Below, piece by piece: positions 14,841 through 18,624 of a stretch of DNA of 64,000 nucleotides (positions are counted from its first letter, which is position 1; every line of letters begins with the position of its first letter). Origin of the DNA: Chryseobacterium fluminis (lineage in GTDB: Bacteria > Bacteroidota > Bacteroidia > Flavobacteriales > Weeksellaceae). The stretch covers positions 4,216,001-4,280,000 of the forward strand of contig NZ_CP111121.1 of the NCBI RefSeq assembly GCF_026314945.1, read 5' to 3'. Both the position numbers and the translations under genes were made by a program. The notes under the pieces were generated by a model. It was not told the origin of the DNA and did not search any database. It saw only the letters and a list, made by a program, of their open reading frames with translations.

Positions 14841-15689
14841 ATGAAGATCACGAAAAAGCAAAATATTATTATTTCAAATCCGGAAACCAGAGATTTTTTA
14901 GCAGATGCATTTTACCCCGAAACAGGACAAAAGCTGCCGCTGGTCATTTTTGTTCACGGTTACAAAGGGTATAAAGACTGGGGCGCCTGGAACCTGATGG
15001 CAGAAAAGTTTGCACAAGCGGGGTTCTTCTTCGTTAAGTTTAATTTTTCCCACAACGGAACTACTCTGGAGGATCCTCACAATTTTGCTGACCTGGAAGC
15101 TTTCGGAAATAATAATTACTCAAAAGAACTTTCTGATTTACGGGCAGTGATCGATTATTTTATTAAAGATGCTGAGGTTGATGCTGAGAAAATCATTTTA
15201 ATCGGTCACAGCAGGGGAGGAGGGATCTCGATTATTAATACTTATGAAGACGAACGCATCAACGGACTGATTACGCTGGCAAGTGTAGATTCTCTCGAAC
15301 GTTTTCCTAAAAATGAAGCTTTTGAAAGCTGGCAGAAAGCCGGTGTTTATTATGTTGTTAATGGAAGAACAAAACAGGAAATGCCCCATTATTACCAGTT
15401 CTTTGAAGATTTCAAAAAAGATGAGCATCGGTTTGATGTGGAAAGGGCAACCGAAATGGCAAAGGCCCATGTTCTCATCATCCATGGAACAAATGATGAA
15501 AGCGTAGCGGTTAAAAATGCTGAACATCTGCATATTTTAAATCCAAATTCGGAATTGTACCTCATCGAAAATGCCAACCATACGTTTGGCGCAAAGGAAC
15601 CCTGGCACGATGAAAATTTACCGGCTGAGTTGAAAACGGTTGTTGAAAAATGTATAGAATTTATCAATGAGAAGATTGTAAATGAATAG
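14841..15689 (+). CDS. Cytoplasmic alpha/beta-hydrolase (dienelactone-hydrolase-like)
   Basis: A 282-residue protein without a signal peptide. HGYKGYKDWG near residue 39 gives the oxyanion region, GHSRGGG near residue 119 the nucleophile elbow, HGTNDESV the acid and ANHTF the base. It resembles the S9/dienelactone-hydrolase group of small acyl hydrolases. The substrate cannot be told. It stands alone between a divergent kinase gene and a convergent flavin reductase gene and is closed by a strong hairpin. Confidence 0.8.
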   Translation: MKITKKQNIIISNPETRDFLADAFYPETGQKLPLVIFVHGYKGYKDWGAWNLMAEKFAQAGFFFVKFNFSHNGTTLEDPHNFADLEAFGNNNYSKELSDLRAVIDYFIKDAEVDAEKIILIGHSRGGGISIINTYEDERINGLITLASVDSLERFPKNEAFESWQKAGVYYVVNGRTKQEMPHYYQFFEDFKKDEHRFDVERATEMAKAHVLIIHGTNDESVAVKNAEHLHILNPNSELYLIENANHTFGAKEPWHDENLPAELKTVVEKCIEFINEKIVNE

Positions 15690-15690
15690 A

Positions 15691-15719
15691 AAAAGGAGTG
15701 ATATTATCACTCCCTTTTA
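15691..15719. terminator. Intrinsic terminator between convergent genes
   Basis: GGAGTGAT (15695-15702) pairs perfectly with ATCACTCC (15706-15713), 3-nt loop, A-run before and CTTTTATTTTT after. Confidence 0.85.
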
Positions 15720-15777
15720 TTTTTAGTGAATTACCATTAGTATTATTAAATGATAATTTTCTCCTAATATTTAAAAA

Positions 15778-16599
15778 TCATTTAATAAGAATTTTCCAGG
15801 CCTCGTCGATTTTATTTTCCAGTAATAATTTCTGAGCCTCCTGATGGATATTTTCGTCATCATAGCAATTTTCAGAAGGTAATACCTCGACATTAGCAAG
15901 CATTCCCAAATCATTTCCGGTAAACACCTGACTGTATTTAATGGAGTCCGGCAGAAGATCGAAGCCGATTCCTTTCGTTACCAATGGTTTGGGAACTTCA
16001 AAAAGATTATCTTCATTGATTCTGGAATACCAGTTTCCTCCCAGGCGCGCTACCATATCCAGTTTTTTCTGGTCGATATCACCTGTTTCATTTAGATATT
16101 CTTCCCTGATATGGATTTTCTGAACTTCACAAATCACCAGGTTTCCTGCTCCTCCCTGATCTCCCAGAGGTTTTACTTCCAATACCTTACACTCAAAGTT
16201 AACCGGGCATTCTTCAATAAGTTTAGGGGTGACCAGGTCTGCATCTTTCATGGTGAGTCCCGACTTTATAAATTCATTCACACCATTTTCATATTCCGTT
16301 GATGCTAATGAGATTTGCTGGACAATCGGAAAATTGACCGTTCCTATCACCACTTCAGGGATTTCCAGAATATTTTCCAGCGTATGCTTCGTTGTATTGT
16401 CACGAACTCTCCTGGATGGTGAAAAAATCAAAATCGGAGGAACCGTACTGAACATATTAAAAAAACTGAAGGGAGATAAATTGATAGTACCATTTTTGTC
16501 GACCGTCGAAGCCAGCGCTATCGGGCGTGGTGAAACGGCCGTCTGCATTACAGTTTGTAATTGTACCGGAGTTAATTCGGATGGAGTTACTGTTTTCAT
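15778..16599 (-). CDS. Flavin reductase family protein
   Basis: A flavin-reductase-like (FMN-binding split barrel) protein. The ATG at 16599 gives 273 residues; an upstream in-frame ATG (16614) adds five residues but sits in a palindromic region, so I prefer 16599. Motifs are TAVSPRPIALAST (the P-R-P flavin loop near residue 25), NLSPFSFFN and SPSRRVRDNTTKHTLEN. Such proteins bind FMN and reduce flavin for oxygenases or act directly as oxidoreductases. It lies downstream of fumarylacetoacetase in the same direction, so a link to aromatic catabolism is plausible; the 501-bp repeat-bounded unit now separates the two. Confidence 0.85.
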   Translation of the reverse strand: MKTVTPSELTPVQLQTVMQTAVSPRPIALASTVDKNGTINLSPFSFFNMFSTVPPILIFSPSRRVRDNTTKHTLENILEIPEVVIGTVNFPIVQQISLASTEYENGVNEFIKSGLTMKDADLVTPKLIEECPVNFECKVLEVKPLGDQGGAGNLVICEVQKIHIREEYLNETGDIDQKKLDMVARLGGNWYSRINEDNLFEVPKPLVTKGIGFDLLPDSIKYSQVFTGNDLGMLANVEVLPSENCYDDENIHQEAQKLLLENKIDEAWKILIK

Positions 16600-16648
16600 C
16601 TTTACATTTAACACTTAAGTTAAATTAGTTTTAAATTTTTGCTTTATA

Positions 16649-16688
16649 TAAGTTCACTTTAGTTTTCTAAAAATCTAAGATTTTTATT
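16649..16688 (+). repeat. Left 40-bp inverted repeat of the GxxExxY cassette
   Basis: Begins TAAGTTCACTTTAG and ends GATTTTTATT. It contains its own small palindrome (AAAAATC, 3-nt gap, GATTTTT), so the inner end can fold as a hairpin. It differs from the right copy only at position 16678. Confidence 0.85.
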
Positions 16689-17099
16689 CCTTTGGAAGTG
16701 TTTTGAAAATTTTTGAGGCAAAGGATTCACAGCCTTCATAATAAACATTGATGACATTAAAATTGATAAGAAGTGACCTTGGTAATTTTAAAAGATTCAT
16801 GTAATTAATTGTTGGGCTCTATGAATCTGATGAATTTCAGAAACAGATTTCACTTCTAAAATCACCAAATCTTCGATCAGAAAATCACATTTTAATTTAC
16901 AATCTATAAGTTTTCCCTTGTATGCAAAAGGAATTTCAAGTTCACTTTTGTAGTTTAACCCCAACAGTTCAAATTCAGTTTTCAAACATTGATGATAGAC
17001 ACTTTCATATAATCCAGGACCAGCCTGTTTATGAACTTCAATACAGGCTCCAATAATTTTATATGAAAGATCATTTATAAATTTTTGAGTTATCATCAA
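16684..17099 (-). pseudogene. GxxExxY family protein, frameshifted
   Basis: The first frame (17099 down to 16797) encodes 100 residues: a GxxExxY motif (GLYESVY, residues 29-35), then a PD-(D/E)XK-like core (KCDFLIEDLVILEVKSV with D and E-x-K). It breaks off at AQQLIT followed by TGA. The family normally continues LITYxKL and then an INFNV strand. Exactly that continuation (MNLLKLPRSLLINFNV) follows in another frame from 16800 to the stop at 16684. The pattern fits loss of about 4 nt (TATA-like) at 16798. Total coding length would be about 138 residues, the usual size. Only the truncated 100-residue form can be made now. Confidence 0.8.
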
Positions 17100-17109
17100 T
17101 TAAAAGAAA

Positions 17110-17149
17110 AATAAAAATCGTAGATTTTTAGAAAACTAAAGTGAACTTA
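17110..17149 (-). repeat. Right 40-bp inverted repeat of the GxxExxY cassette
   Basis: Reverse complement of the left repeat with one mismatch (17120 opposite 16678). Carries the same internal AAAAATC/GATTTTT palindrome. It lies directly upstream of the GxxExxY start and so also forms that gene's promoter region. Confidence 0.85.
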
Positions 17150-17189
17150 AATTATAATTATATCAACTTAAAAATGCTTAAGTGTTTGA

Positions 17190-18437
17190 TTATTTTGTCG
17201 GAATAATTTTTCCACTCACTTCACCGAAACCTACTCTCACGCCATCTTTCTCAGCCCATGCTTTCATGGTTACCGTATCATGGTCATTGATGAATTTTCT
17301 TTCCTCTCCGTTGCTGAGCTGAATCGGGTTCTGACCTCTCCAGGTAAGCTCAAGCATGGATCCGAATGATTTTGGATCACTTCCTGAAATCGTACCGCTT
17401 GCATACATATCTCCAACTTCCAGATTACAGCCGTTTACCGTATGATGAGCGAGCTGCTGCGTCATATTCCAGTACATGTGTTTGTAGTTGCTTTCTGAAA
17501 TCAGGTTTTGCTCTCCGTTTTCAGGCTGTAAATAGACTTCAAGGTTGATGTCATAATTTTTATCACCCTCAAATTTAAGATAATCCAAAACTTCAGGATC
17601 CTGTTTAGGAGAAGCTGTTCTGAATGGTTCCAGTGCTTCCAGAGTGACCACCCATGGCGAAACAGATGAACCGAAATTTTTCGCAAGGAAAGGTCCTAGC
17701 GGAACATATTCCCAGGACTGAATATCTCTGGCAGACCAGTCATTAAAAACAACCATCCCGAAGATGGCATCTTCAGCCTCCTGGGTAGAAATACTTTCAC
17801 CCATCTCTGTATTTTTATTGATGATAAAAGCCATTTCCAATTCAAAATCCAGTTGCTGACAAGGTCCGAAGATCGGTTTTTCCGCATCTGCAGGCTTCAT
17901 CTGGCCTTTCGGACGGTTAATCTCTGTACCCGACACTACAATAGATGAGGCTCTCCCATGATATCCTACAGGTAAATGTTTCCAGTTGGGTAACAAGGCA
18001 TTTGCCGGATCCCGGAACATTTTTCCGACATTGGTGGCGTGTTCGATGCTGCTGTAAAAATCTGTATAGTTCGGAATGTGCACCGGCATCATCATTTTTA
18101 CCTGATCTAAATCGTAGAATGCATCTTCGATTGTTTTTTCATCTTTTGACAATATTGAACCTTCCTGTAATAATTCCTGAATTTTTAAACGGACTGCATT
18201 CGTTACAGGTTTTCCCAGCTCAATGAATTCGTTCAGGGTGTAGGCTTCAAAAATATTGTCCTCAAGCCCATCGATGTCTTCAAAATACGCAAGATCGTAC
18301 AGTGTGGCAAGATCAATGATCTGATCCCCGACTCTTGTGCAACATGCGATATATTCTTTGTTGAAAACCGCTACTCCAAATGGGATATTGTGTATTGAAA
18401 AATCCGAATTGGAGGAATACTCTACAAATGACTTCAT
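17190..18437 (-). CDS. fahA: Fumarylacetoacetase
   Basis: A 415-residue enzyme that hydrolyses fumarylacetoacetate to fumarate and acetoacetate, the last step of tyrosine/homogentisate breakdown. Hallmarks include the N-terminal SH3-like domain, PNYTDFYSSIEHATNVG (metal Asp and catalytic His), LPVGYHGRASS, the metal ligands in FELEMAFII and VFNDWSARDIQSWEYVPLG, and FLAKNFGSSVSPW. Length is as expected and no active-site residue is missing. It shares its orientation with HPPD and homogentisate dioxygenase upstream, giving a complete 4-hydroxyphenylpyruvate-to-fumarate route except for a maleylacetoacetate isomerase, which is not in the window. Confidence 0.95.
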   Translation of the reverse strand: MKSFVEYSSNSDFSIHNIPFGVAVFNKEYIACCTRVGDQIIDLATLYDLAYFEDIDGLEDNIFEAYTLNEFIELGKPVTNAVRLKIQELLQEGSILSKDEKTIEDAFYDLDQVKMMMPVHIPNYTDFYSSIEHATNVGKMFRDPANALLPNWKHLPVGYHGRASSIVVSGTEINRPKGQMKPADAEKPIFGPCQQLDFELEMAFIINKNTEMGESISTQEAEDAIFGMVVFNDWSARDIQSWEYVPLGPFLAKNFGSSVSPWVVTLEALEPFRTASPKQDPEVLDYLKFEGDKNYDINLEVYLQPENGEQNLISESNYKHMYWNMTQQLAHHTVNGCNLEVGDMYASGTISGSDPKSFGSMLELTWRGQNPIQLSNGEERKFINDHDTVTMKAWAEKDGVRVGFGEVSGKIIPTK

Positions 18438-18624
18438 AAGCTTAGAATTTAATTTGAATTAAATAATACGTTAAATTTATTTTCAAATATCCGGGATTTC
18501 AAAGCACAGCTATTCATAGTTTCTACATATAGTCGGATTGCCAATTATATATTGGTAATCTGAAATGAAAAATATTGAATATTATGACGATGAGATGCCT
18601 TATTGCGTGGCATACCCGAAATGT

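Follow-up and report, generated by a model that had tools for sequence, protein, structure and literature searches.

The described system closest in layout to the locus considered here is the REPtron, in which repetitive extragenic palindromic (REP) sequences or bacterial interspersed mosaic elements (BIMEs) are associated with a REP-associated tyrosine transposase (RAYT, or TnpA-REP). According to the sections of two studies that deal with these elements (PMC2817692, PMC8266576), RAYT genes are flanked by two inverted repeat units and their orthologs keep position while the flanking repeats diverge; the REP repeats are intergenic and dispersed, in pairs and tandem modules; and the gene, which is rare on plasmids, is present in correlation with repeat abundance. 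Here we compare with this system a gene of the GxxExxY family (PF13366/TIGR04256) that lies between two inverted ends in a 64,000-nucleotide stretch of Chryseobacterium fluminis contig NZ_CP111121.1 (positions 4,216,001 to 4,280,000; “the window”), at a site between genes for a fumarylacetoacetase and a flavin reductase-like protein (“the window site”). We put at roughly 60% the probability that this copy belongs, in decayed form, to a widespread nuclease-plus-repeat system, in which the word arrays of a small PD-(D/E)XK protein are copied about while the gene mostly stays where it is.

As in a REPtron, the GxxExxY gene is placed between two inverted repeat units, its orthologs stay in place while the flanking repeats change, and gene-less repeats lie outside genes, both paired and in tandem (96 matches at 38 sites, from the best 150 of 9,950 candidates). 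Likewise, repeat abundance goes with the presence of the gene, some families excepted, and the gene is rare on plasmids. The differences concern the enzyme, the ends and the distribution. GxxExxY is a PD-(D/E)XK protein (PF13366), whereas RAYT is an HUH tyrosine transposase (PF01797); only PF13366 was matched and no HUH/Y1 tyrosine transposase gene, the genome itself not having been searched for RAYT. The GxxExxY ends are 40–90-bp arrays of short words at a pitch of 9–10 bp, and the GTAG or CGTC head that is a feature of REPtrons does not appear in the consensus of 21 ends. Also unlike the REPtron, a genome holds several GxxExxY paralogs, with separate ends for each, and they occur in many phyla. 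Because the enzyme and the GTAG head differ, the system is not a REPtron, but on this comparison it would appear to work like one, with an unrelated enzyme.

The design recurs far outside Chryseobacterium. One scan of named genomes yielded at least 80 GxxExxY loci, many of them on contigs of metagenome-assembled genomes; those listed include Bacteroidota, Chlorobi/Ignavibacteria, Planctomycetota, Verrucomicrobiota, Acidobacteria and Chloroflexi, and further Proteobacteria, Cyanobacteria, Treponema and a Methanothrix bin, with no significant inverted ends at the Methanothrix and cyanobacterial loci. Inverted ends beat all 100 shuffles in 57 of the 78 testable loci, high-GC phyla included, and a similarity score of 15 was reached by 68 of 106 loci from other Bacteroidota (30 further loci) and other phyla, as against 2 of 116 neighbouring open reading frames (ORFs). 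The words of the ends take the form C-R-C-R-R-A-G (for example CACAGAG) and are spaced mostly 9 or 10 bp apart; their density per 160 bp is 2.45 in the gene-facing direction, 0.78 on the opposite strand and 0.10 in shuffled sequence. Twenty of the loci (L310–L329) were selected because 16 of them showed facing words.

Gene and words also occur together. Among 247 Bacteroidota genomes, the pattern ACCRCRRAGNNCRCRRAG was found in 80 of the 122 with the gene and in 23 of the 125 without it (731 matches versus 35; for the reversed pattern, 6 versus 22), and the association holds within families (63/95 versus 17/95; Cochran–Mantel–Haenszel p 1.6e-4). In several genomes ends far outnumber genes (37 with 1, 55 with 9, 42 with 5), and example gene-less copies are palindromes of 70–150 bp, one of which folds at z -6.8. 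At one intergenic site in another genus (L330–L346), CGCAAAG-type palindromes are seen in some species and ACCATTAAG-type palindromes in others; both word types flank GxxExxY genes as well. A gene-less palindrome traced through 121 genomes of another genus showed word types that vary at the site and no clean empty site.

Within Chryseobacterium, PF13366 was matched in 54 of 59 genomes, and 114 loci (5 from the C. fluminis genome, 30 automatic and 79 hand-picked among the matches listed) fall by their flanks into 13 sites, each with one protein clade. The two ends of a given gene resemble each other with a score of at least 15 in 57 of these 114 loci; when an end was paired with that of a different GxxExxY gene from the same genome, this score was reached in only 2 of 240 pairings. 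The ends thus match in cis.

The C. fluminis genome also contains such ends without a gene. The combination of word and hairpin, ACTTWAG N0-30 AAAATC NNN GATTTT, was counted 15 times here and 240 times across 40 of the 59 genus genomes, as against 3 times for the reversed pattern. Seven sites with word and hairpin were read, and two of these are tandem arrays. One (L378, G000:C2:557700-559300) consists of 6.4 copies of a 165-bp unit with two window-type ends facing; the other has 2.2 units of 166 bp, each with both ends facing. The window's entire upstream end aligns to these sequences (best E 2e-11). A model of the end (R1, 83 positions), trained on 21 ends (two of the window plus 19 drawn from 7 of the 38 sites), has its 96 matches at E <= 0.01, some of which overlap each other on opposite strands; 30 of the 38 sites were new to the model. 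All of the 30 best matches lie outside any ATG ORF of at least 100 aa, and no trace of GxxExxY was found at their loci. In 42 other sources the model matched nothing at E <= 0.01 (best 0.14). Another genome of the genus, G046, has a gene with CCACAAAAG ends, and the solo units read there carry CCACAAAAGTCACAAAAG too. The occurrence of matching gene-less ends in gene-carrying genomes suggests an overlooked repeat-spreading system.

The features of the window on which the comparison rests are these:

16607–16687, plus strand: downstream end, about 80 bp from outer edge to gene (R1 model 47.4 bits, E 3.9e-13 in 240 kb; alignment A4)
17110–17188, minus strand: upstream end, about 80 bp (R1 model 48.1 bits, E 2.3e-13 in 240 kb)
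16646–16688, plus strand: left inner inverted arm, 43 nt, 95% complementary to the right arm
17110–17152, minus strand: right inner inverted arm, 43 nt, 95% complementary to the left arm
16668–16686, no strand: left hairpin, TAAAAATC-TAA-GATTTTTA, holding the TAA at 16684–16686 (minus strand), stop of the shifted C-terminal frame
17112–17130, no strand: right hairpin, TAAAAATC-GTA-GATTTTTA
16687–17099, minus strand: GxxExxY gene (PF13366/TIGR04256), frameshifted; open frame 17099–16797, with the remainder of the C-terminus in another frame to 16687
15778–16614, minus strand: flanking gene, flavin reductase-like (PF01613)
17190–18437, minus strand: flanking gene, fumarylacetoacetase (PF01557, PF09298)

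A preliminary description of this DNA had reported two near-identical 40-bp inverted repeats, each with its own hairpin, enclosing a single GxxExxY gene. The repeats and both hairpins are borne out, the 43-nt arms being the longest inverted pair in 15600–18500; the length of 40 bp holds for the inner arm only, as the whole end measures about 80 bp and includes an outer word. This word, AACACTTAAG, stands on both ends (16610–16619, and 17177–17186 on the minus strand), and the downstream end reads from outside to inside as AACACTTAAG, an inner word CACTTTAG and the hairpin. With AACACTTAAG as outer and CACTTTAG plus AAAAATC-NNN-GATTTTT as inner part, the window's ends follow the same plan as those of its orthologs, which consist of an outer word pair (commonly CCACAAAAG-T-CACAAAAG, elsewhere AACACATAAGTCACA, where the window has AACACTTAAG), about 35 bp and, in some, an inner word with a gene-adjacent hairpin GAAAATC-NNN-GATTTTC. 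The ends are AT-rich (GC 0.16–0.19), and both arms carry the AAAAATC-NNN-GATTTTT hairpin, with a DNA fold of -3.7 kcal/mol each (z -1.5 and -2.2); taken alone, these hairpins are weak.

The family and the placement of the gene also stand, but the gene is not intact. Its ORF matches PF13366 at E 1.3e-27 (96.9 bits; curated cut-off 22) and TIGR04256 at E 1.2e-28 (99.8 bits; cut-off 35). Because the open frame of 100 aa, covering model positions 2–89, stops at 89 of 117, and the family's C-terminus sits in another frame, as read by eye against the intact orthologs L384 and L385, this copy is frameshifted. Accordingly, the stop codon placed by the preliminary description inside the left repeat is there, as TAA 16684–16686, but is reached by the shifted C-terminal frame only and does not belong to the open frame; the start does lie just inside the right arm, at 10 bp (TTG) or 13 bp (ATG) and not at the 11 bp first given. 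The flavin reductase-like gene probably starts at ATG 16599, outside the element, judging from relatives that begin with the same MKTV.

It is informative to follow the same site through the genus. The fumarylacetoacetase gene is present in 59 of 59 genomes, and between it and the flavin reductase gene a GxxExxY gene is found in 30 of the 42 genomes read, in identical orientation (21 from the site cluster, 7 by tblastn and 2 further); 12 are without the gene, a 43rd (G007) was unreadable and 16 genomes lie outside the tally. The ends at this site vary from species to species. With the gene at the same site in 30 of 42 genomes and the ends species-variable, the window copy was not recently inserted; it has been inherited vertically at this site, and recent transposition into it is ruled out. 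At least four copies here are broken: those of the window, G004, G031 and G041, the last two matched in two frames. The window copy would be an old, damaged member of the proposed gene-plus-repeat system. Among the 12 gene-less alleles, those of G018 and G048 are merely the two ends fused head to head. Six others (L132, L134, L140, L143, L145, L149) hold a different palindrome family, GATGCTTCGACTTCGCTCAGCATGACA ... TGTCATGCTGAGC..GAAGCATC. Inversion of the cassette via its arms was also considered and is ruled out, no flank swap or inverted cassette having been seen among the 114 loci: of 13 cross matches between upstream and downstream flanks, 12 lie within one site cluster (which also shows upstream-upstream matches) and 1 joins different sites.

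The near-identity of the arms bears a signature of conversion from end to end. In the five relatives that share the window's end type, to which this comparison applies, the upstream and downstream inner parts are unlike each other, and in all five the window's downstream arm scores 24.0–28.5 against their upstream ends and 13.5–20.5 against their downstream ends. Further out, the window's two ends remain unlike (score 10), and more distant relatives, which have other word types, give scores at background and no direction. Since the downstream arm resembles the relatives' upstream ends in five of five, the inner 43 nt are most simply read as a downstream end that has received a copy of the upstream inner part. 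On this comparison, 39/40 identity is rejected as a general sign of recent insertion and is better explained by such conversion.

The preliminary description had gone on to propose a minimal mobile unit, dropped between two catabolic genes. That the gene-plus-ends unit is of general occurrence is supported by genes with their own inverted ends in many phyla, by dispersed gene-less copies and by one contrast of occupied and empty sites: a unique insertion in G054 (L110) stands at a gene's 3′ end, where the flanks adjoin in all 29 other genomes read and the host gene's stop codon is now supplied by the element's TTAA. A recently arrived minimal mobile unit is not supported: the site is shared, the gene is frameshifted, 13 sites hold all 114 loci, and the gene is rare on plasmids (8 of 72,556 records) and without a match in 50,697 phage records, each count resting on one query protein. 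Nor was a target-site duplication of 6 bp or more found in 41 elements with both ends anchored, of which 15 are from the same genus and several are orthologous, the elements being read without a strain-level empty site for comparison. Elements are flanked by T on the left and A on the right. As for other copies of the repeat and empty alleles, to which the preliminary description had looked for a decision, the 40-mer is found in the genome at this locus alone (a 26-nt search allowing up to 3 mismatches gave 2 matches, both here), whereas the 80-bp end has its many matches and 12 relatives are gene-less. Two loci elsewhere are tandem repeats of GxxExxY gene plus palindrome: L186 (G149) with 740-bp units and proteins 99% identical, and L187 (G255) with 541-bp units and proteins 97% identical.

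Several observations weigh against the window copy's being a decayed member of a nuclease-plus-repeat system. The gene there is broken; no gene-bearing element was seen to have jumped recently with duplication of its target; and a Foldseek search found nothing in the PDB at E<=0.001. The abundance of the ACTTWAG family is not a simple matter of the presence of an ACTTWAG-type gene at the window site (G046 is highest, with 32), and a paired-word pattern in 10 genomes occurred 11 times forward and 7 times in the control (1 versus 3 in the C. fluminis genome). Families f17, f24 and f28 run opposite to the gene-word association, in small numbers (f17: 0/4 with the gene, 9/50 without), and all four same-genus genomes of that sample have the gene and lack the general pattern, because their words differ. 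Flank similarity in direct orientation exceeds shuffles in 24 of 78 loci, because whole palindromes often border the gene. Finally, 46 of about 114 genus loci, among them most of the 26 at site 0, have little or no inverted ends. Site 0 itself (26 loci, for example L011) holds the genus's best-scoring GxxExxY orthologs, without matching ends and with a mean own score of 7.8, which is background; these genes may have lost their ends or never had them, and site 0 is possibly a domesticated lineage.

It is also worth weighing what else could account for the locus. An ordinary small insertion sequence, with GxxExxY as transposase and the ends as terminal inverted repeats that are cut and pasted or copied together with the gene, seems unlikely: it would explain one gene between inverted ends, the palindromes that resemble miniature inverted-repeat transposable elements (MITEs) and the contrast at L110, but it fits poorly with one protein clade at each of 13 sites, with 41 elements lacking a target duplication, with the plasmid and phage counts, and with same-genome paralogs whose identity does not exceed 70% in 6 of 8 genomes, the other 2 having adjacent tandem copies. 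We are similarly doubtful that the repeats are spread by another enzyme (for example RAYT) or by replication slippage at palindromes, leaving GxxExxY a trapped passenger. Ends are indeed still present, and plentiful, in genomes with a broken gene or one of a different word type (the window; G046), and in 6 of the 12 gene-less alleles the intergenic site holds other palindrome families; however, the words accompany the gene across and within families, the ends match in cis and not between paralogs, and the solo units of G046 bear the outer word of that genome's own gene. 

A purely regulatory role, in which operators arrayed ahead of the gene and a structure matching them behind it serve autoregulation, pairing of mRNA ends or termination and have no part in mobility, is improbable to us, even though the ends directly precede the start and follow the stop codon and words at helical pitch would suit a DNA-binding protein: it leaves unexplained the dozens of gene-less copies, the head-to-head and tandem units and the double-end remnants at gene-less alleles, and the left T and right A flanks are opposite to those of a terminator. 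Virtually no weight can be given to chance, or to an inverted repeat that is simply AT-rich like the low-GC intergenic DNA around it. The low GC of the ends and the weakness of the lone hairpins would be in keeping with it, but the pattern recurs in high-GC phyla, the end-model result contradicts it, and it is refuted by the controls (2/240 paralog pairings, 2/116 neighbour ORFs).

For the nuclease-plus-repeat system, the following course of events can be proposed. A small PD-(D/E)XK GxxExxY protein would be encoded between two inverted ends of about 80 bp, each an array of short words that recur about once per helical turn; some types have a hairpin on the gene side. This word array is most likely bound by the protein encoded between the ends, which then nicks or cuts there, after which repair or replication would copy the ends elsewhere: onto the opposite end of the element (conversion), into tandem arrays, or to new intergenic places as gene-less palindromes. 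The gene itself would seldom move and would mostly be inherited in place. The sequences themselves show the architecture, the words and their pitch, the dispersed gene-less copies, the joint occurrence of gene and words, the match of ends in cis, vertical inheritance at the window site and the conversion signature; binding, cutting and the nuclease as cause of dispersal are steps that we infer. Extended to its full scope, the idea that GxxExxY is the enzyme of a second, independently evolved REPtron-type system in many prokaryotic phyla, whose Cas4/RecB-like nuclease cuts helically phased word arrays and so converts and disperses them, making the CACAGAG, CGCAAAG and CACAAAG palindromes, stands in our judgment at even odds.

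If this is true, a protein family left nameless in annotation and a kind of intergenic palindrome belong together as the halves of a single system, the REP/RAYT lifestyle arose at least twice with unrelated enzymes, and one origin of the intergenic repeats of Bacteroidota and other phyla is accounted for; end-to-end conversion by a stand-alone nuclease would be an added mechanism of bacterial genome evolution. Each GxxExxY gene has, on either side, a candidate binding site of its own, which is a testable handle.

Other known elements share some of these features. As with MITEs and the insertion sequences that mobilise them, gene-less copies share the inverted ends of a gene-bearing element; unlike them, the GxxExxY system has no DDE transposase or target duplication that we found, and its gene-bearing copies hardly move. 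Compared with classical insertion sequences and transposons, the unit has terminal inverted repeats around a gene, but its gene-bearing copies show little change of site (one unique insertion), are rare on plasmids and had no phage match. GxxExxY differs from the Cas4/RecB-family PD-(D/E)XK nucleases in being a stand-alone protein of 123–137 aa with its own repeats flanking, with no CRISPR genes noted and no PDB match in a search by sequence; PADLOC gave no match either. Proteins of the Rpn (recombination-promoting nuclease) family are PD-(D/E)XK proteins often annotated as transposases and belong to a Pfam family other than PF13366; we know of no association of theirs with repeat ends. No link of GxxExxY, PF13366 or TIGR04256 to repeats was found in a literature search that mostly did not extend to subscription journals and preprints.

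Besides the window, PF13366 is matched at four other places in the C. fluminis genome, three of them fragments. One fragment (L007) has an inverted pair of 24 nt at 92%, of the ACATTAAG type. The remaining place (L003, G000:C2:644118-644444) is a second GxxExxY gene, with an open frame of 136 aa and inverted ends of the CACAGAT type.
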